Virus record (IMG/VR): IMGVR_UViG_3300022745_000021
Span: 1-64,000 of that record
Strand: one strand, 5' to 3'
Length of the DNA: 64,000 nt
DNA from: a virus
Position 1 is the first letter of the stretch; each line of letters starts with the position of its first letter. The notes beneath the pieces were generated by a model. The model was not told the origin of the DNA. It ran no database searches and saw nothing but the letters and a program-made list of their open reading frames with translations. Shown one piece after another: positions 1 through 32,188 of the stretch. Both the position numbers and the translations under genes were made by a program.

Positions 1-23
1 GGTGGGGGGGGGGGGGGGGGGAA
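1..23. other. Poly-G run at contig edge
   Basis: Positions 4 to 21 are an uninterrupted run of 18 G. It sits at the very edge of the sequence just beyond a stop codon and is best read as an end-of-contig sequencing or assembly artefact rather than phage sequence. Confidence 0.6.
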
Positions 24-308
24 CTACAGGGGAAATTCGTCGGCAGCCTCGCGCAGCGCTGCGTTGGCGCAGTGCCCTTTGCCGAAAACGTCATCGACGA
101 GGCCGGACAGGACGACACACCAGCGGTAGCCGTTGGCCGCGCCCCATCCGAGGGTAGCAGAGATCGTCTCGCGCGACGACGGCCGGGCGCGGGCGAAGAA
201 CACCCAGCACGGTGCCTTGACCAGCACCTGCATGAGGATGTCGATGGTGAGCAGGAGCGAGATCAGCACCTGCAACGCCCGCTTGGGCATAGACGGGGGG
301 TTGGTCAT
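24..308 (-). CDS. Small membrane protein with ETIS...HC pattern
   Basis: A 94-residue protein starting at an ATG with AGGAGG just upstream, one base after the stop of the tail-chaperone gene. An N-terminal hydrophobic stretch (about residues 9-33) is a likely membrane segment. Further on an ETIS motif and a GHC motif appear, a pairing I recall from small phage proteins of unknown function encoded near tail or lysis genes. It is the last gene of the tail operon in this window. No enzymatic function is visible; a role in host-cell exit or exclusion is only a guess. Confidence 0.7.
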   Translation of the reverse strand: MTNPPSMPKRALQVLISLLLTIDILMQVLVKAPCWVFFARARPSSRETISATLGWGAANGYRWCVVLSGLVDDVFGKGHCANAALREAADEFPL

Positions 309-309
309 G

Positions 310-639
310 TCATCCTCCTGCGGTCGGCAATTCCGGCCAAACAATTCCGGCCGGGTGGGGGGCTTGGGTGATGTCGCGCAGCGCCTGCCGGTAGGCCGCC
401 CAGCGCGCGCGGGTCGCGTCGGGCACATCGGGTAGCGCCGCCCAGTCGCAGGCGTGCAGCAACGCGTGACGGCGTGCGCGCACTTCCGCCCAGAGCGCGT
501 CGGGGTCTTCGGTCCGGCGCTCCCGGCGGTGGGCCAGCTTGCGCTTCACTTCGAGCACGCAGTTCCCGCAACGCCCCTTGTCGTCGAGGGCGAAGTCGTG
601 AACGGCGTGACCGCACTTGATGCAGGGTTTCGTATCCAT
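310..639 (-). CDS. Tail-fibre assembly chaperone-like protein with zinc ribbon
   Basis: A 109-residue protein following the giant tip protein gene. Residues 6-9 and 24-27 form two CxxC pairs, a probable zinc ribbon. The second half (about residues 56-105) carries the DW..LPDVP...RA.WA.YRQALRDI...P signature of the phage tail assembly chaperone family often encoded next to fibre genes. It probably helps fold or trimerise the long fibre part of the neighbouring protein. Family recognition is from memory; the zinc ribbon in front of it is less usual. Confidence 0.8.
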   Translation of the reverse strand: MDTKPCIKCGHAVHDFALDDKGRCGNCVLEVKRKLAHRRERRTEDPDALWAEVRARRHALLHACDWAALPDVPDATRARWAAYRQALRDITQAPHPAGIVWPELPTAGG

Positions 640-645
640 GTTACC

Positions 646-3600
646 TCAATATGTAAGCGTCAGCTGGCACTTTTCACCCCCCGGCGTCGCCGAGCGCGAA
701 GAACTGGCCGTACCCGGCGCCGTCCACGACACCGACGTGATCGACGTAACGGAGCCTCCACCGGCATCAGTCGCACCTATGTCCGTGACGCCAGATGGCG
801 CGGTGACCACCTCATCGAACGCACCCGTGATCGTCTTAGTGCCGGGGGTAAAATATGAGTTGGTGCCTGACAGATAGGAGGAACCTGCCAGTACCCACGA
901 GCCAGATACCTTGGCATAGATATAAATCGCCACTGACCAGTCGGCGTAATATAGGCCGTAGCTATCGTAGTAGGCCGTCGAAGTCGTAGACCACGTGCCC
1001 TGTACCCGATACTGGTTGCCCACCGCATCAGGATTTGAACCCTTGCTGACCACACGGTTGGGCTGACCGGTTCCACCCGCAGCATCCGTCGTCAGGTTAT
1101 AGTTGGTCGGTGCCCCCGGCACATTGACCTTGAGCCTTACAGTCGCACCGCTGGCGGTCTGATTATCCAGATACAGGTTGTAATTCTCGGTCGTACCGAT
1201 CGGGGCGAGACCACCGGACTGGAATGTCGGGATTGGCAGGTATCCGGCGTTCGGGTAGCTGATGCTGTCCCCGTCCCCGACCTGCATGATGTACGGCGCG
1301 ACGGCCATACGCAGGGCGAGGCCATTCGTGAACAAGATGCGCCCGCCGATGATGATGTCACCATCAAAGGTGGCGTTGCCGTTGGCAATCTTCATCGCCA
1401 CCTTCTTGTTGGTCCCCGCCGCGTTGGTGACGACGACTTCCTGCGCCTCAAAGCCGATGCTGCTGGTGGGGTTCCCGCTGCCATCAACCGCCATCAGCTT
1501 GACCGACGCTGTAGCAGCGCCTGCGCTGGTCGAGAGGGTCACGTAGGACTGGAGCTTGCCGGTGTGATCGGCGATCACACCTGCCTGATAGGCTGCACTC
1601 GCCTCAGCGGTGTAGTCGGTGGCAACCGAACCAGCTTCGAGCTTGATCTGACGGAAGTTGCACGAACCCCCGTTCGCATTGAATGCGACGCAGCGGACTA
1701 CCAAATAAGCGGTGCCGGTCGGGGCGGTCTCAGTGTGGGCGTAGGACTGACGTGCTTCAAAGGTGTTGCTGAAGTCGTGGCCGGAGCTGTCAACCTGCCC
1801 GCCGTCCAGCAGCACGTTGTTGCTGGCGTCGTAATAGATGACATCGCAATAGCCGTGGGTGCCGCTGCCCCAGATGGCACTGTCGTAGGACAGCGTATGC
1901 ACTTGGCCGGCAGTCGCGGTGATGCGGTCGGAGACCAACACCTGCGTTCCGTCTATCCACGTCGAGACGTAGGCACCCCAGTAGTTGGTCCATGCACCAG
2001 AACCAGCTACCTGCACGTTCCAATTCGTGACGTTCGTCCACTTGGCAAGGCCGCTCTCGAAGCCGCCATTGGGTAGCAGGTTCGGTGAACCGGCAGACAG
2101 GCGCTGGGTGAAGGTCGATGCCTGCGATTGCAGCGTGGCGATGCTGCTCGATTGCATGGTGATGGACGCCGAGAACTGGCTGGCGGTCAGGTCATCCGAG
2201 TAGAGGGTGCAGGATGCCCCTTGCTCCAGCTTCACCCGCTTCCACGCAGCACTCGTGTTGGACCACGTGCTGCCGCCCCAGATATCGAGGTGGACACGGG
2301 CATAACGCACGCCCGAGGGCGGGGTCTGGTTCTCGATCTTGACCAGATTCCATCCGCTATTTCCGGCGTTGACAACCGCCTGCCCCGAATACCCGAGGTG
2401 GTTGTGTCCACTGTCGAGCCACTGGACGTAGGCTCGAACTTGGGCTGACCCCGTCACACCGCCAGCGTAGATTTCCGCCTGCAGACTGATGGCGGCAGTG
2501 GATTGGTAATCGACGTCCTGCCAAAGCCCCGATCCGGTTGTGTTGTTGCCCGAGGCCGAGACGAAGATATTGCCTTCGCCGTAGGTGCCAAGGCTGACAT
2601 AGACGGGGTAGCTAGGGTTGTCCTGGTTCCACCCGGTTGTGCCGTTGGTCGCGCTTGGGTTCTTGAGGATATTCGGCTTGACCGCGATCGACGCGTTGAT
2701 CGTCGATACCGACGTGGCAACCGATGCTATAGCGTTGGTCCGCACATCAGCCTCGTAGCTGATCGCGGCCTGCACGTTCTCCATCTGGTAGCGGCTGCCG
2801 CCGGGGGAGTAGTTGTTGAACAAGGTCTGCCCGCTGCGGGCCTTGCCAATGTAGGGCCTCCAGAACCACGCCCAGCTATCGCTCTGTCCAGAGTTGGTAT
2901 CGATTTTGCGCAGAGCGAGAAACATGCGGGTCGTGCCTGCAGGGGCTTGGATCGCCTTGACGCCAACCTGTGTCCAGTTCGCGGGGTTCTTGCCGCCCGT
3001 GCTGACAGCGTCGCCTGCGTAACCGTAGCCGGTCCAGTTCCCCGCGTCGTCGAGGAACACCAGCACGACTGCGATGGGTGCTCGGTGGGCAGCACAGTAG
3101 GCATAGGCCTGATAGTATTCACCTGCGGTGGCGGAAACAGCAGCACTGCCCCACTCACCGATATCGGTCCCTGTGCCGAGACGACCGTCCTGACGCATCG
3201 ACAGGACATTCTCAGCGACGGGATGCCAGTCTGACCCAGCACCGTTGACGGTGACGTTGTCGAACACCATCGAGCCGTTCGACTTACCGAATGCCCAACC
3301 CGCTGTCAGGCCGTTCGGGAAGTCCGTGTTGTTCAGGAGGTTGCCGCCGCCCGTGAACGCAGCGGACAGGGTGGCGCTAGTCGCAGCGCTCGACTCGCTC
3401 GCCGAAGCTGCGGAAGCTGAAGACGCGGCGTTCGTGGCCGAGGTGTTTGCGTTACCTGCGTAGGTCGCAGCGTTGCTGGCATAGGTCGATGCGGTGGACG
3501 CTGACCCGCTTGCCGACGATGCGGACCCGGCAGCGTTGCTGGCGCTGGTGGATGCCGCGCTGGCCGAGCCGCTGGCACTATTAGCGCTGTTGGACGCTGC

Positions 3601-6600
3601 CGTTGCCGAAGTCCCCGCCGAAGAAGCCGAGGTGCTGGCGCTGCTTGCACTCGACGATGCCGCCGACGCGCTGTTGCCCGCGCTGGTTGCCGAGTTGGCA
3701 GCGTTCGTCGCACTGGTGCTGGCAGACGACGCGGACCCGGCAGCGTTGCTGGCGTAGGTAGCAGCCTGACCGGCACTGGTGCTGGCGTTGCCCGCATAGG
3801 TTGCGGCATTCGTCGCTGACGTGCTGGCGTTGCTCGCCTGCGTCGAAGCGGTTGAGGCCGATCCGGCAGCGTTCGAGGCATAGGTCGCTGCCGAGTTGGC
3901 CGAGCCGGATGCGTTGCTCGCCGAAGTCGCGGCGCTGCCTGCGCTCGACGACGCCTGCCCCGCGCTGGTGGCTGCGTTGTTGGCCGAGGTGGTCGCGCTC
4001 GATGCCTGCTGACCTGCGGTGGTTGCCGACGCCGCAGCGCTCGATGCCGAGGACGCGGCTGCCGTCGCCGAACCGGCAGCGTTGTAGCTCTCGGTAATGT
4101 CGGTCAGTTGCAGGCGGCGAACGTGGTAGACCGCGTCGGAATAGCTCGACCCGGCGTTGTCCCAATTGATGTGCGCGCGCGGACGCGCCCAGAACAGGTT
4201 GCCATCGGCGACCCAGTCGAGGTCGAACGTGGTCCACGTCGCGAACGGCATGGCGGTGAGGAGGTTGACCGCCGACGTCACGCCTTGCCAAGCGCCCGAA
4301 CCATCCTGCCGGTAGAGGCCAAAATGGGCAAACGACGGACGGCCGTTGGTCGCCTCGACGACGCGGGCGATGTCGATCGACACGCGGTAGCGCCGCCCCG
4401 GCGTGGGGACGAACGTACCGCGCGAGGCTACCAGCGCATACTGGTTGGCACGCGAGGCAAACACCGGATAGCTGGCGGAGCCGAACCAGTCGTCGCCCCA
4501 GATATTGCCGGGCGTGTAGTTCCCCTCGTCGCTAATCCAGAACTGGTGCTCATTGGGGGTGAAGCCCGAGGGAAGCAGCTGCGCGGCGGCGGTGGCTGAG
4601 ACTGACGAACTGGTCGCGGCGCTATTGGCGCTGCCCGCCGCGTTGGTCGCCGAGGTCGCGGCGCTGGAAGCCGACGACGCTGCATTGCCCGCGTAGGTGT
4701 AGGCATTACCTGCGTAGGTGAAGGCATTACCCGCACTGCTGGCGGCGTTACCTGCATAGGTCGAGGCGGTGTTGGCGCTGCCCGAGGCGTTGGACGCCGA
4801 GGTCGCGGCGCTCGATGCGCTGCTGGCGGCTTGGCCTGCGCTGGTCGAGGCGTTGTTGGCCTGCGTCGTCGCGGTCGAAGCCGACTGCCCGGCGGCGGTC
4901 TGCGATGCGGATGCGCTGGAGGCCGAGGTGGCAGCCGCCGTCGCCGACAGCCCCGCCGCATATTCGGACGTGATGTCGGTCACGACCGGCGCCGACAGGT
5001 ACATGTTACCGGCGTTGAAGTTCTGCGCTGCGCCGCCCCAGCCCGAGAGGCCAAGCACCTGCACGATCGGGAACCAGTACGGCGGCCAGCCGCTCGCAGG
5101 GATGGTGACGTCGAGGCCGATCGGCACCCAAGTGTTGGCGGGGATATGGAACGACCCGCCGTTGCAACCGGGTGCAACTGCGACGTTATCCCCGCTGACC
5201 CCGACAGAAGTGCCGTCACTCCAGACGCCCGTGTTCGTGCCACCAAGCCAGATATTGACATAGGCGTTGGTGGCATCACCGATGGCCCAAGCCGTGTAGC
5301 GGTAGCGCCGCCCGGGCTGCGTCACGATGCCCTTGGCCGGGTAGATCGAGAGTACGTTGTGACTGGTATCAGTGCGAGCGAGGTAGGGCGATTTCCAGCC
5401 CCAGTCGGCATGCGCGGGTCCATCGATCGAGACGTTGTTCTCGACGATCCACGCCGCGCGTTGATCCGGGGACAGCCCGCCGGGCAGCATCGCTTGTAGA
5501 ACCGAGGTGGCCCCGTCCTTGGCGCTCGCTGCCGTCGTCGCGCTGGAGGCGGCGCTGTTGGCGCTGCCCGAAGCATTGCTGGCGCTGGTCGCTGCCTGCG
5601 ACGCCGACGTGCTCGCATTGCCCGCCGAGGTGTTCGCGGACGTCGCCGACGCAGCGGCAGCGCTGGCGCTGTTGCCCGCGTTGGTGGCCGAGGTCGATGC
5701 TGACGAGGCACTGCCCGAGGCGGCGCTGGCGCTGTTCGCGGCGTTGGTGGCCGAGGTCGCGGCAGCCCCAGCCTGCGTGCTCGCCGTGCTCGCCGAGCCG
5801 GCGGCGCCGGTCGCGCTGGTGCTGGCGTTGTTGGCATAGGTTTGCGCCTGCCCGGCAAAGGTCAGCGCGTTCGACGCCTGCATGTAGGCGTTGCTCGCCT
5901 GCGTCGCGGCGTCGTTCGCCGACGTGCTGGCCGAGGTTGCGCTGTTCGACGCGCTGGTGGCGCTGTTGCCGGCGGCGGTCTGCGATGCGCCTGCGTTCGA
6001 CGCGCTGGTGGCAGCGGCGCTCGCATAACCCGACGCGGCTTGGCTCTCGGTGACATCCTCCAGTCGGAAATCGCTGATGCGGATTTCCATACTGGGCTGA
6101 CCCCAATCGCCATCAATGATTACGAACGGGATGATCGCCTGCACGCCCGCCGGGATCGTGGTGACCGCGTCGATCAGCTGGTAGCCATAGGTGCCCCCAC
6201 CGCCTGCGGCGTTCTGCCACCAGAAACTCTGGGTGCCATCCGCCATGAGCATCGAATAACCAAGGCCGCCGGGGAACGCACCGAACTGCACCGACACGTG
6301 TCCGTAGACGTGCAGCTTGCGCCCGCCCCAGTTGCCGTAAATCCAGTCACCCTCGAAGGCGTCGCGCGTGTTCGCAATGAACAGCGCCTTGCCGCCCGAC
6401 ACGGGGGCGAGAGGCTGGCCGTAGTAGGCGGGGTTGATGACCGAGCACGGCCCGCCGGTCGGGTTGTACCACTGGCCGACCGAGCCGTCCGAGAAGGTGC
6501 CCTTGCGCACGATGTTGCGCGAGGCAGCCGAGCTTTGTGCCTGCGCTGCCAGCGTGGCGCTGTTCGAGGCCGAGGAGGCGCTTCCTGCTGCATTGCTGGC

Positions 6601-9600
6601 GCTGCTCGAAGCCTGCGACGCAGACGTGTTGGCGTTCGATGCCGACGTACCCGCTTGGCCCGCGCTGGTGGCCGCATTAGTTGCCTGCGTCAGCGCCGAG
6701 CTTGCCGAGTTTCCCGCATTGGTCGCGCTGATCGCAGCGTTCGACGCGCTGGTGGCAGCCGCCGTCGCCGACAGCCCCGCCGCATATTCGGACGTGATGT
6801 CCTCAAACTTGATGCCCGTCAGATAGACATGGTTGCCCACCGGACCCGTATAGTTGGCAGCGTTGTAGATATGGAACATCGGACGGACGTACGCGGGCCA
6901 ACCGGCGGGGACGGTGAAGTCGATGCCGACTTTGGTCCACGTGTTGGCGGTCAGCCCGCCCGAGACGATCGCGGCGGGCGGGCTGCTGACGGTCGCGTTC
7001 ACGTTCTGCGAGGTGCCGTCGTCCCAGTTGGATGTGCTGGTGCCGCCCACCCACATTCCGGCGGCGCAGGCGCTGTTCCACGCATAGGCCCAACCCGTAG
7101 CCCGGTGACGCCGTCCCTGAACGGCAGGGATGCCGAGGCGCGGGAATACGTACATATCACTGACAGCCGGATCGCCGTGGGCCAGATAAGGCGCGGGCCA
7201 ACCGTCGTTGACTTGGGCCGGCCCAATTACCTCTGTCGAACGATCGATCCGGTAGGCGTCGCGCCCGTAGGGGTCCAAGTTGGGCGGGAACAGTGCCGCC
7301 GCCGTGTCACGAGCGCTGTTCAGGTAGCCCGCCGTGGTCGAGGAGAACGACGACGCGCTCGACGCACTGCCCGCTGCGTTGGTGGCCGAGGTCGCGGCCT
7401 GCCCTGCGCTGACCGACGCCGCGCCCGCGCTCGATGCGGCGTTGGTCGCCGATCCTGCCGCTGCCGTCGCCGAGTTGCCAGCATTGGTGGCGCTGGTCGA
7501 AGCCGAGGAGGCGCTACCGGCGGCAGCGCTGGCCGAGTTGCCCGAGTTGGTCGCCGACGTGGCGGCAGCCCCGGCGCTGGTCGAGGCCGAGGATGCGCTA
7601 CCGGCGGCATTGGTCTCGGAGGTGTGCGCGTTGCTGGCGTAGGTCGCCGCGTCATTGCGGAACGACAGCGCGTTGAACGCCTGATTGTAGGCGTCGGTGA
7701 CCGACTGCGCAGCGGCGCTCTGGGATGCCTGCGCCGCGTCGCGCGCGGACTGGGCGGCACCCTGTGCGCTTTGCGCGGCATCGCGCGCGGTCTGGGCACC
7801 GGTCTGGTAGCCGAGCGCGGCATCGCGGGCCGACTGCGCGGCGGTCTGCGCGCTCTGGGCGTTGGTCTTGGCGGTCTCGGCGGCGGTCTGCGCGGTGGAC
7901 GCGGCGCTCGATGCCGCCTGCGCCTGATCCTTCGCCGTGCTGGCGGCCGAGGCATAGGTGTTGGCGACGCTGGCGCTGGACGCCGCTGCTGCGGCGCTGG
8001 AAGCTGCCGCCGCCGCCTGCTGCGCCGCGCTCTGGGTCGAGCCGTACGTCGCGATCAGGCTGGCGATGTCGCTCTGCGCCTGCGAAATCTGTCCGGTGAC
8101 ATCGGTCGGCCCGGCGCTGATCTCGGCGCTGGGGGTGCCGTCGCCGAACACGTCGAAGGGCACCAGCTTGAGGTAGTGCGTCGCCTGTGCGAGCTTGGGG
8201 ATCGTCACCCGCGAACCGGTGCCGGTGTAGCGCAGATTGGCATTGGTCAGCGCGACCGGCGAGGTGGTGTCGGCGTAGACGCGGTATCCGGCATAGTCGG
8301 GGTCGGCCGGATCGGCGACGGTGACCATGATCCCGTCTAGCGTGCCGGTTGCAGCCGGTTGCACCGCCCACGTCGGCGCCGGGTTGGTGAACGTCGTCGC
8401 GGCCATCGCCGAGAGGTTGCCGTTGACGTCGAGCATCTGCACCCCGATGCGCGGACCCCGGATCGGGCCGCCGTCGGCGTTCTGCATGTCGTAGGTGTAG
8501 ACGTAGCTCGCATCGGTGACGATGGCGGTGCGGCGCACGCTCACCCCGTTGGCGGCGTAGACCGTGACCTTGAAGCCCGCGAAGAACTGGTCCTTGAAGG
8601 CTTGGCCCACCTGCCCGTCGGGGGCGCCGATCGCGCGGGCATCCCAGCGCACGGCCAGATCAGGTCCCGAGAAGGTGACCATGCCTTCGGGCGTGGTCGG
8701 GTTGGTGACCATCGCGCGTGCGTTGACGTTGGTCGCGTCCTGCACGTTGTAGAGGCCCGAGAGCACCGCCGAGGGCACGCCCATGGTATTGACCGCGAAG
8801 ACGCGGCACTCGTAGGCACCGTTGATCGGGCTGTCGATGATCGCTTCGGTCGAACCGGTCTGGGGCAGCGAGGCCCAGTTGCCGCTGTCAACCCGGTAGG
8901 AGAACATGTAGCCCGAGAGGATCGTGGTGTCCGACTTGGTCCACGTGACGATCAGGCTGTTGGCGACGCTCGCGCCCGAGGTGCGCGTCTCGACCCGGAA
9001 CTGCATGTCGGTCGGCGGCGCGCAGTACGACGGGTTGGGCAGCTTCTGGTAGGTGCCGGCGGGGTCTTCGATGAAGTTGGCGCTGTTGTCGGCGATGTCG
9101 TACTTCTCGGCGCGGTATTCGAGCGCCAGCACCTCGAACTGCCCTTTGGTGGCGTCCGCGATCGACAGCACGCGGAACGGGCGCGGCTCGACGCTGCCGA
9201 TCTCGGACAGCGCGAAGATCGCCCCGACAATCGGCATGTCGCCGCTCGGCAGCGGGGTCGCCAGCGTGACGATGTCGGTGCTGCCCGGCGCGTTGGTGAC
9301 GGCGGCCGAGAACAGCTGGCCGGTCTTGGTCATCACCGAAAGCTCGTACTCCTCGCCCGCCGCGAAGGGGAACGGGGTGTCCATGCGCACGCTGGAGGTC
9401 GCCACGTCGAGAATGCGCCCGCCCATGCGCGGCCCGGCGTAGGCGGGGTCCACGATCTCGATGACTTCGCCCGGGACCAAGTCAGCCGCCTCGTAGCCCG
9501 AGGTGAACTTGACGGTCTCGGTCTCAAGGATTTCGGTGGCGAGCAGCCAGCGCCCGAACCGCCGGGCCTGCCCGCGCGAGGTGCAGCCGATGGCCGCGAC

Positions 9601-10995
9601 TTCGGTGGGCAGCATGCCGTATCGCTTGATACCTTCCTTGTCGGGGATCACCTCGTAGTCGATGGTGTACCCCAGCTGCGGGTTGTTCCACGAGACGATG
9701 GCGACGGTGTGACGGGCCTTCTTGGAGGTGCCCGCGTACTCGAAGTCGCCGTTGATGACGTTGGCGGGCGCGAAAATCTTGACGGTGCCCTGCGGGCGGT
9801 CCTGCGCCAGCGAGAACAGCCCCGCCGACCAATAGGTCATGCCCCGGAACGCCGAGGCGAGGCCGGTGAGCACGTTGTAGACGGTCTCGGCCTTGTTGAT
9901 GACGCCGTTGAACGCGAAGCGCGGCTCGACGCCGCCGTAGCCGTCCGGGACGCCTACAAATGTTCCCGTCGTCTCATTAATCGCGTCGCAGTAGCGCGCG
10001 ATCTGGTAGAGAGACCACTTGTCCACGTAGACCGGGTCGATGCCGGCGCCGTAGCGGGTGTTGGTGGCGATGTCGTACATCACCCACGCCGGGTTGTTGG
10101 TCCACGCCCACTTGAAGGTGCCGTCCCACAGGCCGGTATAGGAGCGCGCGATCGGGTCGTAGTTGCTCGGCACGCGGATGATGAGGCCATAGACCTCGTA
10201 GGCGCGCGCCGGGATCGTGGTCCCGAAATACTGCGCGTCCACGCCCACGCCGATCAGCGCGGTGAACGGGTAGGTGAACTTGTGGTCGTAGACCAGCTGC
10301 ATGCGGCTCCAGTTGGTCGCATTGGTCAGCTTGACGGTGTTGCTGTCCGCCGTCTGGCGCACGATGGTGACATCCCACGGCCCTTGGCCGGGCAGGTCGA
10401 TGCGGTAGTCCTCCTCGTAGGGCGACACGCACTTGCCCGAGATCGTCGAGACGGCGGCGAGCACCTGCGGATCGGTGCCAGCGTCGGCGCGGCTCTTGAC
10501 GTAGATATTGTGCACCACGGTCGAGCCGGCGATGTGCTGGCCGTTGTCCTGCGCCTCGTTGAGCGCGGGGACGTTGAGCGTGACGATCACCGCGTCGGCG
10601 TCGAGATCGCTGATGCGGCGGGTGTTGCTGATGCCGGCTTTCAGTTCAAGCTGACTGAAATCTGCAACGGGTTGCATCGCCGATGGGAAACCCGCGATGT
10701 AGTCCTGATCGGCAAGCCCGGGCGTGAACACCCATTGCACGCCGTTGAAGTTGGCGGTGCCGTCGGCCGAACGGATCGGGGTGTTGTCGAGGTAGATCGA
10801 CTTGTCGCCATTGACCAGCCCCCGGATTTCGCCTTCGCTGATCGCGTCGAGCACGTAGCCGGTCGCGGTCGAGCGCAGCGAATTGGGGTCCTCGACGAAC
10901 TTGCCGCCCTTGCCGCCACCGGCACCCGTAACCGGCCAGCGCCGCAGCGTCTGGGCGGCCGACTTCATCTGGGAGGGCTTGACATGTTCGGTCAT
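646..10995 (-). CDS. Giant gpJ-like tail tip / host specificity protein with fibre repeats
   Basis: A 3449-residue protein; start ATG at 10995 with GGAG-type site upstream, giving an N-terminus MTEHVKPSQ. Residues 1 to about 950 match lambda gpJ-type central tail proteins: hub region followed by fibronectin-III-like domains. From about residue 970 the sequence alternates Ala/Ser/Thr-rich repeats, like those of lambda side tail fibres and likely to form trimeric coiled stalks, with globular modules of 150-180 residues (about 1229-1405, 1492-1652, 1832-2012, 2135-2305, 2548-2725, 2780-2930, 2968-3128). The modules have lengths and motifs reminiscent of carbohydrate-binding jelly rolls, several ending in D[IV]T[SE]-type motifs. 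The C-terminal 300 residues resemble the gpJ/DUF1983-type end. It should sit at the tail tip and bind the host surface. Lambda gpJ is about a third of this length. Confidence 0.9.
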   Translation of the reverse strand: MTEHVKPSQMKSAAQTLRRWPVTGAGGGKGGKFVEDPNSLRSTATGYVLDAISEGEIRGLVNGDKSIYLDNTPIRSADGTANFNGVQWVFTPGLADQDYIAGFPSAMQPVADFSQLELKAGISNTRRISDLDADAVIVTLNVPALNEAQDNGQHIAGSTVVHNIYVKSRADAGTDPQVLAAVSTISGKCVSPYEEDYRIDLPGQGPWDVTIVRQTADSNTVKLTNATNWSRMQLVYDHKFTYPFTALIGVGVDAQYFGTTIPARAYEVYGLIIRVPSNYDPIARSYTGLWDGTFKWAWTNNPAWVMYDIATNTRYGAGIDPVYVDKWSLYQIARYCDAINETTGTFVGVPDGYGGVEPRFAFNGVINKAETVYNVLTGLASAFRGMTYWSAGLFSLAQDRPQGTVKIFAPANVINGDFEYAGTSKKARHTVAIVSWNNPQLGYTIDYEVIPDKEGIKRYGMLPTEVAAIGCTSRGQARRFGRWLLATEILETETVKFTSGYEAADLVPGEVIEIVDPAYAGPRMGGRILDVATSSVRMDTPFPFAAGEEYELSVMTKTGQLFSAAVTNAPGSTDIVTLATPLPSGDMPIVGAIFALSEIGSVEPRPFRVLSIADATKGQFEVLALEYRAEKYDIADNSANFIEDPAGTYQKLPNPSYCAPPTDMQFRVETRTSGASVANSLIVTWTKSDTTILSGYMFSYRVDSGNWASLPQTGSTEAIIDSPINGAYECRVFAVNTMGVPSAVLSGLYNVQDATNVNARAMVTNPTTPEGMVTFSGPDLAVRWDARAIGAPDGQVGQAFKDQFFAGFKVTVYAANGVSVRRTAIVTDASYVYTYDMQNADGGPIRGPRIGVQMLDVNGNLSAMAATTFTNPAPTWAVQPAATGTLDGIMVTVADPADPDYAGYRVYADTTSPVALTNANLRYTGTGSRVTIPKLAQATHYLKLVPFDVFGDGTPSAEISAGPTDVTGQISQAQSDIASLIATYGSTQSAAQQAAAAASSAAAAASSASVANTYASAASTAKDQAQAASSAASTAQTAAETAKTNAQSAQTAAQSARDAALGYQTGAQTARDAAQSAQGAAQSARDAAQASQSAAAQSVTDAYNQAFNALSFRNDAATYASNAHTSETNAAGSASSASTSAGAAATSATNSGNSASAAAGSASSASTSATNAGNSATAAAGSATNAASSAGAASVSAGQAATSATNAAGSASSASSFSSTTAGYLNSARDTAAALFPPNLDPYGRDAYRIDRSTEVIGPAQVNDGWPAPYLAHGDPAVSDMYVFPRLGIPAVQGRRHRATGWAYAWNSACAAGMWVGGTSTSNWDDGTSQNVNATVSSPPAAIVSGGLTANTWTKVGIDFTVPAGWPAYVRPMFHIYNAANYTGPVGNHVYLTGIKFEDITSEYAAGLSATAAATSASNAAISATNAGNSASSALTQATNAATSAGQAGTSASNANTSASQASSSASNAAGSASSASNSATLAAQAQSSAASRNIVRKGTFSDGSVGQWYNPTGGPCSVINPAYYGQPLAPVSGGKALFIANTRDAFEGDWIYGNWGGRKLHVYGHVSVQFGAFPGGLGYSMLMADGTQSFWWQNAAGGGGTYGYQLIDAVTTIPAGVQAIIPFVIIDGDWGQPSMEIRISDFRLEDVTESQAASGYASAAATSASNAGASQTAAGNSATSASNSATSASTSANDAATQASNAYMQASNALTFAGQAQTYANNASTSATGAAGSASTASTQAGAAATSATNAANSASAASGSASSASTSATNAGNSASAAAASATSANTSAGNASTSASQAATSASNASGSANSAASSATTAASAKDGATSVLQAMLPGGLSPDQRAAWIVENNVSIDGPAHADWGWKSPYLARTDTSHNVLSIYPAKGIVTQPGRRYRYTAWAIGDATNAYVNIWLGGTNTGVWSDGTSVGVSGDNVAVAPGCNGGSFHIPANTWVPIGLDVTIPASGWPPYWFPIVQVLGLSGWGGAAQNFNAGNMYLSAPVVTDITSEYAAGLSATAAATSASSASASQTAAGQSASTATTQANNASTSAGQAASSASSAATSASNASGSANTASTYAGNAASSAGNAFTYAGNAYTYAGNAASSASSAATSATNAAGSANSAATSSSVSATAAAQLLPSGFTPNEHQFWISDEGNYTPGNIWGDDWFGSASYPVFASRANQYALVASRGTFVPTPGRRYRVSIDIARVVEATNGRPSFAHFGLYRQDGSGAWQGVTSAVNLLTAMPFATWTTFDLDWVADGNLFWARPRAHINWDNAGSSYSDAVYHVRRLQLTDITESYNAAGSATAAASSASSAAASATTAGQQASSATTSANNAATSAGQASSSAGSAATSASNASGSANSAATYASNAAGSASTASTQASNASTSATNAATYAGNASTSAGQAATYASNAAGSASSASTSATNAANSATSAGNSASAASSSASSASTSASSAGTSATAASNSANSASGSASAASTSASNAAGSASSASGSASTASTYASNAATYAGNANTSATNAASSASAASASESSAATSATLSAAFTGGGNLLNNTDFPNGLTAGWAFGKSNGSMVFDNVTVNGAGSDWHPVAENVLSMRQDGRLGTGTDIGEWGSAAVSATAGEYYQAYAYCAAHRAPIAVVLVFLDDAGNWTGYGYAGDAVSTGGKNPANWTQVGVKAIQAPAGTTRMFLALRKIDTNSGQSDSWAWFWRPYIGKARSGQTLFNNYSPGGSRYQMENVQAAISYEADVRTNAIASVATSVSTINASIAVKPNILKNPSATNGTTGWNQDNPSYPVYVSLGTYGEGNIFVSASGNNTTGSGLWQDVDYQSTAAISLQAEIYAGGVTGSAQVRAYVQWLDSGHNHLGYSGQAVVNAGNSGWNLVKIENQTPPSGVRYARVHLDIWGGSTWSNTSAAWKRVKLEQGASCTLYSDDLTASQFSASITMQSSSIATLQSQASTFTQRLSAGSPNLLPNGGFESGLAKWTNVTNWNVQVAGSGAWTNYWGAYVSTWIDGTQVLVSDRITATAGQVHTLSYDSAIWGSGTHGYCDVIYYDASNNVLLDGGQVDSSGHDFSNTFEARQSYAHTETAPTGTAYLVVRCVAFNANGGSCNFRQIKLEAGSVATDYTAEASAAYQAGVIADHTGKLQSYVTLSTSAGAATASVKLMAVDGSGNPTSSIGFEAQEVVVTNAAGTNKKVAMKIANGNATFDGDIIIGGRILFTNGLALRMAVAPYIMQVGDGDSISYPNAGYLPIPTFQSGGLAPIGTTENYNLYLDNQTASGATVRLKVNVPGAPTNYNLTTDAAGGTGQPNRVVSKGSNPDAVGNQYRVQGTWSTTSTAYYDSYGLYYADWSVAIYIYAKVSGSWVLAGSSYLSGTNSYFTPGTKTITGAFDEVVTAPSGVTDIGATDAGGGSVTSITSVSWTAPGTASSSRSATPGGEKCQLTLTY

Positions 10996-11006
10996 GGGAG
11001 AAGTCC

Positions 11007-11774
11007 TCAAAAGGAAGTGTCGATGTACTCGCCGATCAGGCTGCCGCCGTTCCACGCGAACATGGTGCCGCTGCCGCCGTAGCGAGTGTTGGAGACGCCC
11101 GATGAGATCGGGACCGAGCCGACCCGGATCGGGCCGCCGTAGACCAGCGGTAGCACGTCGCCCTGAACGCCGACGTTGCTCGCACCGGTGAAGATATAGC
11201 TGTCGTCCTTCTTGGCGTCGGACGCGGCGGGGGCCTTGGCGAGGACTTGGCTGACGCCTTGCAGCGCGATCATGCCTCCGATCAGCGCAAGGTTGCCGAA
11301 GGTGACGTTCATGCCGAGCAGCGAGAACGCGGTGGCACCGATCGCGTGCGCACCCGTCGCGGCAGCCCCGGCGCCGATGCCGCTCATGATCGCAGGCGCG
11401 GCGATCCACGCGCCGGCCACCAAGGCGACGCCGATCAAAATCTTGCCGAGGCCGCGTCCGCCCGCGCCGGTCACCGCCGGGATCACGTGCAGGTCGCTTG
11501 CCCCCAGCCCGAGCTTGAGCATGTCCTCGTCCAGCTGGCAGGTCTCGTCGGCCAGTTCCGCGCGCAGCCGCGCCGCCGGGATGCGCCCGCCCCGGTAGTC
11601 GGGGAAGTTCTGGCGGATCAGGGTGAACGCGCCGTCGCGGATGATCCCCTCGAAATCGGGGCGCTGGATCAGGATGGCGCGGATCGCCTCGGACGCGCTG
11701 TGGACGTCAAGCTCGATCCGCTTGGACCCCATCGCCTGCGCCAGCGTCCCGTAGAGGTGGATCGTTTTCTTCAC
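11007..11774 (-). CDS. I: Tail assembly protein I (lambda gpI-like)
   Basis: A 255-residue protein with an N-terminal ubiquitin-like/ThiS-like region (about 1-95), a Gly/Ala-rich hydrophobic central part (about 100-165) and a conserved C-terminus ending near the tip protein gene. This layout and its place between gpK and gpJ match lambda gpI, needed for tail tip assembly. Its start overlaps the end of the gpK gene by 68 bases, as in lambda-like tails. Confidence 0.9.
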   Translation of the reverse strand: MKKTIHLYGTLAQAMGSKRIELDVHSASEAIRAILIQRPDFEGIIRDGAFTLIRQNFPDYRGGRIPAARLRAELADETCQLDEDMLKLGLGASDLHVIPAVTGAGGRGLGKILIGVALVAGAWIAAPAIMSGIGAGAAATGAHAIGATAFSLLGMNVTFGNLALIGGMIALQGVSQVLAKAPAASDAKKDDSYIFTGASNVGVQGDVLPLVYGGPIRVGSVPISSGVSNTRYGGSGTMFAWNGGSLIGEYIDTSF

Positions 11775-12657
11775 ATGGGGTCTCCGGTTGACGGTCCAGT
11801 GAGGTGTGGCGCAGCCAAACTTCGATGCGGGGAAGCCAGCGGGAAAGCGGCGCTTCCTCTGACACCCTATTAAGTAGGTGGTGCACCATCATCTGTCCAC
11901 CCGTGTAGACAACACCATGGTTCAATCTGTGCGGAGACATCACCCGCACCAGCCCGACATCGCCCTTTTGCAGCACCAGCGGCGAGCGTTCGTCGCCCGG
12001 ATCGGTGTGGATTTCATGGGGGGCCAGCCGGCGGAAGCCTTCGCGCCGGTAGTAGTCCATGAACAGGTCGGGGGCGGTGCGCGGGTCTTCGCCTTCCGCG
12101 CCGAGCCACCATTCGTCGTCGCGCGGCTCGCTGGTGATCGCGATGCCGAACTGCTGGCGGTAGTAGCGCACGATGGCCTCGACGCAGTCGGCGACGCCCG
12201 GGCGGAACGGCACGCCGGTGACCGGGGCATCGGCCTCGATCGGGAAGCTGAACTCGTCGATCACGCGCGGCACGGGGTCGCTGTGCGAGAGCGCCGGATC
12301 ACCATCGCTGCAACTGGTTGCAACCGGCGGCACCAGCACCACGATCACCCACGGCACGTTCGTCGCGCGCTGGGAGATCATGTCGGCCCGCGACGGCGCG
12401 CGCTGCCCCTTGGTGTGCGAGTGGACGATGGCGACAAGGTTGCCCGCCTCCAGCGCCGCCTCGTACGCGCCGGGGTCAAGCTCGAAGCTGTCTTCGCGCC
12501 GGTCCTCGGGGGCGACGTTCTCGCAGCGCTGGTAGGCGAGCACACCGTCGTCCTGCCGGGTGACCATGCCGCAACACTCCTCGGGGAAGGTGTCGCGGGC
12601 GTGGGCGTAAATCTGGCCGCGCAGGTACGGCGGCACGCGGAAGGCGTGATCGTTCAT
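11707..12657 (-). CDS. K: Tail tip peptidase gpK (JAMM + NlpC/P60)
   Basis: A 316-residue two-domain protein. The N-terminal JAB/MPN domain has the complete JAMM zinc set: Glu27, His79, His81 (HSH) and Asp92 in a P-S-R-x-D context. The C-terminal NlpC/P60 domain has Cys158 in a DCVE motif, His247 and a second His near 259. Such proteins process tail components and cut peptidoglycan during DNA entry. The start ATG overlaps the gpL stop as ATGA. A paired GTTGCAAC element lies inside the gene at 12308. Confidence 0.93.
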   Translation of the reverse strand: MNDHAFRVPPYLRGQIYAHARDTFPEECCGMVTRQDDGVLAYQRCENVAPEDRREDSFELDPGAYEAALEAGNLVAIVHSHTKGQRAPSRADMISQRATNVPWVIVVLVPPVATSCSDGDPALSHSDPVPRVIDEFSFPIEADAPVTGVPFRPGVADCVEAIVRYYRQQFGIAITSEPRDDEWWLGAEGEDPRTAPDLFMDYYRREGFRRLAPHEIHTDPGDERSPLVLQKGDVGLVRVMSPHRLNHGVVYTGGQMMVHHLLNRVSEEAPLSRWLPRIEVWLRHTSLDRQPETPCEENDPPLRDAGAGDGVQADRA

Positions 12658-13403
12658 CGCTCGTTGACCCCCAGAAAGCCCCCGTAGGGGAGGACGCCCT
12701 TGGCGCCGAAGCGGAGCTTGCACCCGGCAAGGTCCTGACTGCACGTGTCGAGCGCCTTGTCGGTGACCGGGTTGCCGTCGATGTCGAACATCGCCGTGCC
12801 GGTGTACGAACACCCCTGCACGTTCGAGTAGTCGAAATCCCCGGTGTTGACGTCGTAGACGCGGTACGGCCACAGGCAGGTGTGCTTCCAGCACTTGCGC
12901 TTGGGGATGCTCTCGCCCTCGCGGTCGAGGAAGCTCGCCATGGTCCATTCGAGGTAGAGCTTGTTGGCCTTGCCCTTCTGGATCACCTCCCACACCGTCG
13001 GCGGGTAGGCGGCGTCGGGGTCGGCGTGGGTCTGGCCGTCGAGGAACTGCGAGAAGGTGACGATGCGGGTCAGCACCGCGCCCACCAAGTCGCGGTAGGC
13101 CGCCGCGATGCTGCCGGCGATGTTGTTGATGTTGGCGATGCGCAGCATCGGCTGGGGCAGCTGGCCGCGCCCGTTGATCTCGAAGCCCGTCGCCTCGATC
13201 GGCACGCTGGCGTAGGTCTTGCCCCGGTAGACGATCTGGTTCTCGCCGAGCGAGGACGGCGAGAAGTACAGCTTGCCGCCCGGCGGCAGGTCGGCGGTGG
13301 GCAGCTTGAGCGGGGTCAGGTCGAGCACGAACAACTCGACGCGGTTGCCCGGGGCGAGGCTCTGGCTGACTTCGGCGATGGTGGGGTTGGTGGTGCCGGT
13401 CAT
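12654..13403 (-). CDS. L: Minor tail protein L (gpL-like)
   Basis: A 249-residue protein with the layout of lambda gpL: an N-terminal domain binding the tail hub and a C-terminal part with clustered cysteines (CWKHTC, GCSY, DTCSQDLAGC at about residues 168-230). In lambda those cysteines hold an iron-sulfur cluster. It lies between gpM and gpK and forms the tail tip with them. Confidence 0.92.
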   Translation of the reverse strand: MTGTTNPTIAEVSQSLAPGNRVELFVLDLTPLKLPTADLPPGGKLYFSPSSLGENQIVYRGKTYASVPIEATGFEINGRGQLPQPMLRIANINNIAGSIAAAYRDLVGAVLTRIVTFSQFLDGQTHADPDAAYPPTVWEVIQKGKANKLYLEWTMASFLDREGESIPKRKCWKHTCLWPYRVYDVNTGDFDYSNVQGCSYTGTAMFDIDGNPVTDKALDTCSQDLAGCKLRFGAKGVLPYGGFLGVNER

Positions 13404-13426
13404 GGGCGTGCGCCTTGATTACGGGG

Positions 13427-13780
13427 TCACTGGGGGTTGAACGAGCGCACGAAGCTGGCGGTGATACCGTAGTTGGCCGGACCGATGAAGCGCGGCTTCC
13501 ACTTGGTGCAGCGCCAGCGCGTCGCCGCCGCGTCGCCGGGGTACTTCCACATGAACGTCCCCGCACCGGCGAGACCGGTCAGGAACGTGTCCACGCTCTG
13601 CGCCTCGGCCTGCGTCAGCCCTTCCCAGACCACCTCGGTGGATGGCTTGATCGTGTTGATGCCGTCACCCGAAATCTGTTCGTAGCCGTCGCCATAGGTG
13701 CTGACGTTGTTGCGCGGTTCCTTGTCGATCTCGACCGGGAAGATCGGGCCATAGGACAGCGGGAAGGTGGGGGTCGTCAT
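13427..13780 (-). CDS. M: Minor tail protein M (gpM-like)
   Basis: A 117-residue protein matching the phage minor tail M family: an aromatic PTFPLSYGP-type start, a YGDGYEQ motif near residue 29 and a C-terminal RF.G..NYGITASF motif. It acts at the tail tip between the tape measure and gpL. The leader contains the ACACGTGTAGGAG motif, in which the ribosome binding site is embedded. Confidence 0.92.
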   Translation of the reverse strand: MTTPTFPLSYGPIFPVEIDKEPRNNVSTYGDGYEQISGDGINTIKPSTEVVWEGLTQAEAQSVDTFLTGLAGAGTFMWKYPGDAAATRWRCTKWKPRFIGPANYGITASFVRSFNPQ

Positions 13781-27192: not shown

Positions 27193-28917
27193 CTAGAGTT
27201 GCAGCACCCGCCGCGTTGCAACCAGTTGCACTTCCTCCTCCCCGTCCGCGTCTAGGTCGTTGGCCGCTTGGGGCAGGGGGGTGTCTACCCCGAAGGTGAC
27301 GTTGCCCGCGCCGTAGGCAAACCCGAGCAGGTAGCCCGCGACATAGCCGACCCGCGACGTCGCCGGTTTGCCGATCCGGCTGTAGGCGTCTTCGATGCCC
27401 CATGCGTGCTGCGAGCGCGCCGCGCCCCACGTGCACAGCATATGTCCGGGCAGCGGCGTGACGTTGGCGGGGAGCAACGCGTCCAAGTCCTTGCCCGCGC
27501 GCTTGGCCTTGAGCTTCGCGCCGGCCAGTGCATGCAGCGCGTGCTGGAGGAAGTTGGCGAGGCCGTGCGTCGCGCGGATCGCGGTGATGACCTCGGCGGG
27601 GAGGTAGCGGTAGCGCTCGGTGACGTACTTGGTCTCGTCGTGCGCCATGAACACCGGGATCATGTAGGCGAAGTGCGCGCATGGCGTGCGGTAGCTGTCG
27701 GTCACCACCTCGACGGGGAGCATGAACACGCCGTGCCAGCCGATCGCCGAGCGCGTAATCATCAACCGCGCCGCCGGCACCGCCCACCAGAAGTTGGCGA
27801 TCTCGCCGCGATGCTTGTCGAGCACCGGGTAGTGGCGCGCGGTCGCTTCGAGGTTGAGTACGGTGAGGCCGCTGTGGCTGTGGGTCAGCCCGAACACCAG
27901 CGCCGTGCCCGCCGTCTCCGAGCGGTAGGTCACCGTGTTGCGGTTCCTGCGGTACACCGAGTGGTCCGGCTCGACGTGGCGCGTGTGGCGGATCAGGGTG
28001 GGCGAGGTTACCGACGGCGGGAACACGCCCGACGCGCCCTTTTCGGGGCCGATCGTGTCGAGCACGTCGCTGATGTCGAGCATCCGCTTTCCACACGTGT
28101 TCTCTGGCAACGTGTCAGGATCGGCGATGGCCGCGCGCTTCAACGGGTCCTTGGGGACGCCCATGCCGCGCCCGAGCGTGTCCGCGCCGCCGCGCCCGGC
28201 GAGCTTGGCGGCGGCGAGGCTCGACACGTCGTAACCCTCGTGGCGGTAGGCGATCTCCATGTAGTCCCACGCCGACATTTCGCCCGACAGCACCTGCGGC
28301 ACGGCGACGCCGAGCGCGCTGCGGTAGGACGGGGAAGCCGAACCGCGCAGGTTGCCGTGGATCAGGTTCAGTTCGGCCGAGCCTTGGCCCTTGAGCGGGG
28401 CGATGCGGTCGCCGTCGGGATCGGCCAGCGTCAGGTCGATCGGCACCTTGCCGTCCTTGGCCGTGTCGATCCACACCTTGAGGTCGTGGGCAAATGCCAC
28501 GGGGGACCAGATGTTTTCGGTGTCGGTCAGCTGCGGGCACAGGCGGGCGCTATAGGTGCGATCCCGATTACCCGTAAACCCTGCCGCCTTGACGTGTCCG
28601 TTGGGCAGCACCTGCCAGCCGTAGGTGCCGGCGGTGTCGTCCTCGATAAACCGGGCCAGTTCCTGCGCGCCCTCGTCGAGCAAGTCGATCACGATCTCGG
28701 CGTGGCTGAACGTGTGGCTCTTGGGGTCGTTATCGACCACGACGCGCAGCAGCTTGACCTCGAACGTGCGGCGCAGCAGGTCGGTGATCGGTGCCCAGTG
28801 GTAGCGGCGAAGCTCCTCGGCGCGGCCTTCGATGACGGCGCTCTGCGCGTTGTGCGCGGCGATGATGAGGTCGCGCTCGCAGGTGGTCATCGGTTTGGTG
28901 ATGGTCACGGTTGCCAT
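27193..28917 (-). CDS. Conserved-looking 574-residue protein, unknown
   Basis: A 574-residue protein between the portal and a small HTH gene, the place where a terminase is usual. I see no Walker A, Walker B or nuclease motif. The first 90 residues resemble a beta-sandwich; two hydrophobic stretches occur at about 395-420 and 530-550. The C-terminal VQLVAT is encoded by a paired GTTGCAAC element at 27215. It has its own promoter of the repeated family. A virion or head-filling function is possible but unsupported. Confidence 0.75.
   Translation of the reverse strand: MATVTITKPMTTCERDLIIAAHNAQSAVIEGRAEELRRYHWAPITDLLRRTFEVKLLRVVVDNDPKSHTFSHAEIVIDLLDEGAQELARFIEDDTAGTYGWQVLPNGHVKAAGFTGNRDRTYSARLCPQLTDTENIWSPVAFAHDLKVWIDTAKDGKVPIDLTLADPDGDRIAPLKGQGSAELNLIHGNLRGSASPSYRSALGVAVPQVLSGEMSAWDYMEIAYRHEGYDVSSLAAAKLAGRGGADTLGRGMGVPKDPLKRAAIADPDTLPENTCGKRMLDISDVLDTIGPEKGASGVFPPSVTSPTLIRHTRHVEPDHSVYRRNRNTVTYRSETAGTALVFGLTHSHSGLTVLNLEATARHYPVLDKHRGEIANFWWAVPAARLMITRSAIGWHGVFMLPVEVVTDSYRTPCAHFAYMIPVFMAHDETKYVTERYRYLPAEVITAIRATHGLANFLQHALHALAGAKLKAKRAGKDLDALLPANVTPLPGHMLCTWGAARSQHAWGIEDAYSRIGKPATSRVGYVAGYLLGFAYGAGNVTFGVDTPLPQAANDLDADGEEEVQLVATRRVLQL

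Positions 28918-31288: not shown

Positions 31289-31292
<4 letters not shown>
31161..31292 (-). CDS. 43-residue single-pass membrane protein coupled to ThyA
   Basis: A short gene starting at a GTG that overlaps the thyA stop as GTGA, with GAGG at 7-base spacing inside the thyA end. The product has a basic N-terminus and one clear membrane helix (about residues 18-37: [20 protein letters not shown]). No homologue recognised. The coupling and hydrophobic design argue for a real gene. Confidence 0.6.

Positions 31293-32188
<896 letters not shown>

Follow-up and report, generated by a model that had tools for sequence, protein, structure and literature searches.

In phage lambda the central tail fibre is the C-terminal part of the tail tip protein gpJ, made of a helical shaft, a beta prism and a receptor domain, and 29.7 nm separate its receptor-binding end from the FNIII domains (PMC11101478). 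In streptococcal phages, carbohydrate-binding modules (CBMs) of the Dit and Tal tail proteins have been shown to bind the host, according to the passages of PMC9437275 that cite Lavelle 2020. Here we analysed the tail tip gene J found in the first 64,000 nucleotides (the window) of the IMG/VR record IMGVR_UViG_3300022745_000021, the 104,959-base record of a bacterial virus, a siphophage. We read its product, with a probability of roughly 0.65, as a siphophage gpJ (Tal-class) central tail-tip fibre with a greatly lengthened, module-bearing distal part that scans polysaccharide. An earlier note on this DNA had singled out positions 646-8085, which turned out to be the post-core part of J (residues 971-3449), the gene itself reaching further upstream (Table 1).

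For the core of J, we found matches to two Pfam families above their cut-offs, PF24801 (E 1.4e-22, 80.6 bits against 27) and PF13550 (E 1e-17, 65 bits against 23), and, in the PDB, to lambda J (8iyk, E 2e-103) and the F2-pyocin fibre (25vf, E 1e-127), and on this homology J is identified as a lambda-type gpJ. Moreover, the tape measure gene, M/L/K/I-type minor tail genes, J and a fibre chaperone gene follow each other in lambda-like order, which places J at the position of gpJ. The region between core and stalk probably consists of further fibronectin-like domains. The frame opens with an ATG at 10995, with GAGG directly upstream. Two plus-strand open reading frames (ORFs) of 832 and 907 aa lie opposite J and were dismissed as shadow frames of GC-rich DNA; gene calling by codon usage selects J. 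Residues 25-311 of the core match the first half of phrog_30, the second half of which is matched by a neighbouring JAB/NlpC (K-type) frame (11707-13566, minus strand). The longest alignments to the core were given by the J proteins of a group of Rhizobium siphophages of about 109 kb; the J of L338C has 1651 aa. A search of genome contigs with the core returned enterobacterial-type loci only (32-36% identity), and a whole-gene megablast of J against phage records matched nothing. The 84 J-type ORFs in the loci retrieved have a median of 1099 aa, so that window J has roughly three times the ordinary length, yet it is not the longest.

Past the core, about 2450 residues including the tip alternate Ala/Ser/Thr repeats with modules, in agreement with the more than 2000 residues claimed in the earlier note. 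Its count of seven modules, four in the repeat region and three near the C-terminus, was also confirmed, M1-M4 lying between five stalk blocks and M5-M7 after them. The blocks were delimited by scanning for Ala/Ser/Thr-rich composition, and heptads were assessed in each as the Ala power at period 3.5 compared with 5000 shuffles. This power was 5.4-14.7 across the five blocks, against a highest shuffle value of 1.9, and the periodicity is far above chance, because in each block it exceeds all 5000 shuffles. From the Ala at two heptad positions, the stalks are predicted to form a thin, Ala-based coiled coil. They match the Ala-rich tail-fibre families phrog_3279 (E 1e-36) and phrog_38058 (E 2e-23), and within the 105-kb record the matches to phrog_3279 fall inside J only. 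A match of stalk 5 to T7 gp17 (E 4e-4) was taken as coiled-coil composition and rejected as homology.

All seven modules are distinct in sequence, as had been noticed before, with related pairs 23-35% identical and M7 showing a weak likeness to M6. M1-M4 end in the exit motifs EDITSE, EDVTES, TDITSE and TDITES, respectively, and because the motif of M2 is like the others, and like those of three Lumi modules, M2 probably belongs to the same group as M1, M3 and M4. AlphaFold2 and Foldseek were applied to two modules, M5 and M3. M5 was predicted as a jelly roll, with a good model (predicted local distance difference test score, pLDDT, 76.3; predicted template modelling score, pTM, 0.79), and its PDB matches were the tailspike proteins (TSPs) K2-2 TSP and CBA120 TSP4 and the tail fibre Kp7 gp52, together with CBM61 and CBM4; against CBM4-2 (2y64) the model gave E 5.6e-5 and a TM-score of 0.56-0.58, in keeping with a jelly-roll fold. 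The M3 model was all-beta (pLDDT 67.7, pTM 0.67), its best PDB matches were CBM16, CBM22 and CBM4, and among viral models it matched minor tail and J proteins as well as CenC-like domains. By sequence, M5 scored 14.6 bits with Pfam CBM_4_9 (PF02018), below the cut-off of 25.9, and the other modules did not match this family. The top five sequence matches of a profile of the M5 family were CBM4 xylanase modules, under significance (E 0.11-0.6), and a sequence search of the PDB with profiles A1 and A2 gave no meaningful match. The comparison with carbohydrate-binding families proposed in the earlier note thus holds for the predicted folds of M5 and M3, which resemble CBMs and not coiled coil only, but not for the CBM_4_9 sequence score. 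Its label lectin-like is supported for the predicted fold, and with this fold the possibility that the modules bind different glycans agrees. As in multi-CBM Tal proteins, several CBM-like jelly-roll modules would stand along a long extension: both modelled ones are predicted jelly rolls with CBM matches, and of the other modules M1 and M4 are homologous to M3, and M6 to M5, with M2 joined through its exit motif only.

The distal part of J appears to be mobile. An IMG/VR search with M5-M7 found one relative, locus L087; searches of IMG/VR with M1 alone, with the module alignment A1 and with a Lumi-based query found no relatives. The L087 protein (7091-11956) has a tail-tip core of phrog_5616 without significant blastp match to the core of window J, followed by a distal part with an Ala-rich stalk, M5 (51% identical to that of J), M7 (28%) and, with 35% identity across some 80 residues, the beginning of the tip. 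We conclude that the distal cassette has moved between unrelated tail proteins, because L087 bears it on another core family, and exchange of modules or of the distal cassette among such proteins is a probable route of fibre growth. The tip start scored E 0.025 with PF09327, the C-terminal 314 residues had no PDB match, and the end of the tip region was without relatives in our searches. At fourfold sites, the third-position G+C content (GC3) of J is 0.94 in the core, drops to 0.82 in the stalk and is down to 0.73 from M5 to the tip; the core is comparable with the other genes of the phage, mostly at 0.85-0.98, and the fall has a parallel in L087. The DNA repeats of J are divergent, tandem units being about 75% alike, and the longest exact repeat has 51 nucleotides (nt), none reaching 60. 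As no exact repeat exceeds 51 nt, short reads could resolve them, and collapse or expansion of repeats in the assembly is unlikely. The two 51-nt copies are identical with a drop in identity at their flanks, which suggests a recent duplication or conversion at the exit joint of M1 and M3. A tentative and rather unlikely extension of this picture is a self-lengthening, open-ended adhesin, in which the conserved module-exit DNA would serve as a homologous joint at which sugar-binding knobs are duplicated, swapped or dropped, on a central rod of about the length of the tail.

Table 1. Positions in the window of J, its parts, the 51-nt repeats and neighbouring genes
Feature	Residues of J	Position	Strand	Basis or remark
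Tail tip protein J	1-3449	646..10995	minus	one uninterrupted open frame, 3449 aa; phrog_1727/2589/31, E 1e-196 to 1e-186
gpJ core (hub domains, FNIII-A_GpJ, Phage-tail_3)	24-750	8746..10926	minus	Pfam, PHROGs, PDB
Region between core and stalk	751-983	8047..8745	minus	aligns with J of 100-120 kb Rhizobium phages up to residue 951
Stalk 1, Ala/Ser heptads	984-1225	7321..8046	minus	period 3.5 power 6.4, shuffle maximum 1.85
Module M1	1226-1407	6775..7320	minus	35% identity with M3 across 188 aa (E 1.5e-37)
51-nt exact repeat, copy 1, exit of M1		6751..6801	minus	sequence identity
Stalk 2	1408-1488	6532..6774	minus	heptad periodicity
Module M2	1489-1655	6031..6531	minus	weak homologue in Rhodovulum phage J; exit motif (DVTES) as in M1/M3/M4
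Stalk 3	1656-1827	5515..6030	minus	heptad periodicity; best phrog_3279 stretch, aa 1650-1829
Module M3	1828-2011	4963..5514	minus	AlphaFold2 all-beta model
51-nt exact repeat, copy 2, exit of M3		4927..4977	minus	identity about half or less to either side
Stalk 4	2012-2135	4591..4962	minus	heptad periodicity
Module M4	2136-2305	4081..4590	minus	23% identity with M3 (E 2.5e-6); Lumi J 2679-2840 matches weakly
Stalk 5	2306-2544	3364..4080	minus	Ala 34/35 and 33/34 at two heptad positions
Module M5	2545-2725	2821..3363	minus	AlphaFold2 jelly roll; homologues in Lumi, DSS3_VP1, Bhz55, L087
Module M6	2770-2935	2191..2688	minus	27% identity with M5 across 162 aa (E 1e-5)
Module M7	2966-3135	1591..2100	minus	homologues in Chlorobiaceae phage CV-1-33, Xanthomonas phage Valrath J, L087
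C-terminal tip region (314 residues)	3136-3449	646..1590	minus	sub-threshold likeness to Phage_Tail_Tip (PF09327) at its start
Tail fibre assembly chaperone (Phage_tail_APC), 109 aa		310..639	minus	directly downstream of J
Gene preceding J		11007..11774	minus	gene calling
Tape measure protein, 1006 aa		13806..16826	minus	PF09718, E 4e-16; phrog_1716

By homology, the N-terminal 750 or so residues of J would form a trimeric hub that seals the tail tube. The following 2450 or so most likely build one long trimeric fibre, in which thin rods of Ala-based coiled coil and seven jelly-roll modules alternate up to the tip; in this model the coil and the module folds are predicted, and the trimer is inferred. 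The modules would most likely bind surface polysaccharide weakly and reversibly at many points as the phage scans the cell, by analogy with the long CBM-bearing Tal proteins (PMC8540738, PMC7291167, PMC9437275), until the tip or the last modules make a decisive contact that would be relayed to the hub and open the tail, by analogy with lambda (PMC11101478). The chaperone-like gene that the earlier note had seen beside J does belong to the APC family (PF16778, E 1.7e-16, 60.2 bits against a curated cut-off of 26.6; phrog_4912, tail fibre assembly, 3e-18), and from its family the protein probably aids folding or assembly of the fibre. If the fibre is one trimer, its coil of 858 residues would, at 0.1485 nm each, extend over about 127 nm. 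By the lambda rule of thumb a 1006-residue tape measure corresponds to a tail of about 150 nm, a length which the coil alone would approach. A fibre several-fold longer than that of lambda, and with seven knobs, would put to the test whether direct opening of the tail by tip contact is still feasible, or whether tethering is all that the fibre does and a second contact is the trigger.

Several points weigh against a polysaccharide-scanning fibre. CBM-like folds in phage structural proteins can be purely structural, acting as a trimer knot or spacer; the M3 model is moderate, with a TM-score of about 0.4 to CBMs; and the GC3 gradient is seen in Lumi J too, and part of it may stem from composition and not from origin. 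The modules of J could be knots or spacers that keep the chains of a very long trimeric coil aligned and fix the length of the fibre, with only the extreme C-terminus recognising the host. This would agree with the top fold matches of M5, which are phage tailspikes, proteins in which beta-sandwich domains of this kind have structural roles as well, with the exit motif common to the stalk modules, which leads into coil like a helix-starting cap, and with lambda, in which the receptor is bound by the C-terminal domain only (PMC11101478). However, seven divergent modules exceed the needs of a spacer, modules move between tail proteins, which is typical of binding modules, and CBMs of streptococcal Tal and Dit proteins bind hosts, as the relevant passages of PMC9437275 state. 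We therefore hold a purely structural role to be unlikely, although it deserves attention.

The earlier note had also proposed a merger of host-specificity protein and side fibre. J does have a gpJ tip followed by a very long stalk, but an extended central fibre fits better, and the merger is not fully backed, because lambda gpJ already holds the central fibre and long multi-CBM gpJ/Tal extensions are known; the structure of J can be accounted for without it. Fusion in the strict sense, between gpJ and a one-time side tail fibre of the Stf type, with one chain taking both central and side fibre roles, would account for the matches of the stalk to phrog_3279 and phrog_38058, for the confinement of the former to J and for the presence of one fibre chaperone only, the Phage_tail_APC family being single-copy in the 105-kb record. 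No separate Ala-rich fibre gene was found in that record, which may be incomplete, and this is no proof of a fusion event. At the same time, Ala-rich heptads are low in information and the PHROG match may be compositional, neither Pfam nor PHROGs revealed a side-fibre tip domain such as the C-terminal domain of Stf in J, and the homologous cassette of L087 sits after another tip core, not on a side fibre. We consider such a fusion improbable. That the assembly joined genes or multiplied modules is hardly credible: the gene is repetitive and lies within a virus record, but it has no exact repeat above 51 nt, its frame is open throughout, all modules differ, and the isolated phage Lumi has the same layout.

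Around J, the gene preceding it would, from its position in the lambda gene order, encode a gpI-like tail assembly protein. The chaperone carries a zinc-ribbon-like N-terminus (CIKC...CGNC) before its Phage_tail_APC domain, and beyond it lies a called gene of 94 aa (24-308, minus strand) without Pfam match. A 574-aa protein adjoining the portal gene (27193-28917, minus strand) matched no Pfam or PHROGs family. Genes for thymidylate synthase, the ribonucleotide reductase large subunit and DNA polymerase were found at 31289-32188 of the window, 11092-12939 of L119 and 5666-8659 of L120, respectively; this is a phage running its own nucleotide metabolism. Its terminase (L119 56-2197, minus strand) is 44% identical to that of the Rhizobium siphophages of about 109 kb across 80% of its length, and the phage is therefore a distant relative of that group.

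A close counterpart of window J is the J of Xylophilus phage Lumi (tail protein Lumi_025, WCD44164.1, 3640 aa), in which a gpJ core, coil-like heptads alternating with many beta modules of about 170 aa and a Phage_Tail_Tip domain are arranged as in the window. It bears four M5-type modules (blastp E down to 2e-12), and three of its modules end in EEITAEY, EEYSDEY and EEVTAEY, an exit motif of the M1-M4 type. Its coil, however, is made of mixed polar heptads rather than Ala/Ser, and the cores are only about 25% identical; the paper on Lumi leaves the tail protein undiscussed (PMC9959647). M5-type modules are also present in the J of DSS3_VP1 (2575 aa) and in a tail protein of Stenotrophomonas phage Bhz55 (2553 aa), while Pseudomonas phage Lana gp20 (J, 2505 aa) has a coil plus several beta-like modules, judged by eye, and Rhizobium phage RHph_X66 has a long J/tail-tip protein of 2064 aa. 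These four proteins differ from window J in being shorter and in their coil repeats and module sequences.

Lambda gpJ (1132 aa) has the homologous hub, the same gene order and a C-terminal central fibre, but its short helical shaft, beta prism and receptor domain bear no string of modules. With lambda Stf and the Ala-rich fibres of phrog_3279 and phrog_38058, window J shares the Ala/Ser heptad stalk, which here lies within J and is interrupted by modules, whereas Stf is a separate gene with a side-fibre C-terminal domain. The Tal of Oenococcus phage Vinitor162 (2170 aa, five modules) is a published CBM-studded tip protein (PMC8540738). Long Tal proteins of this and streptococcal phages, of up to about 2000-2500 aa, carry CBM4/CBM22-like modules on a helical or collagen-linked extension, and the sections of these descriptions that we draw on do not mention Ala/Ser heptad rods (PMC8540738, PMC9437275). 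They also differ in their Gram-positive hosts, in a gp27-like Tal core in place of a lambda gpJ and in having fewer modules (five at most). CBM-bearing tip extensions, published in the parts of the literature considered here for phages of Gram-positive bacteria, thus occur on lambda-type gpJ cores too, and distal cassettes are common to unrelated tip proteins. As its layout is not unique, window J counts as an unusually large representative of a known kind and not as a novelty.

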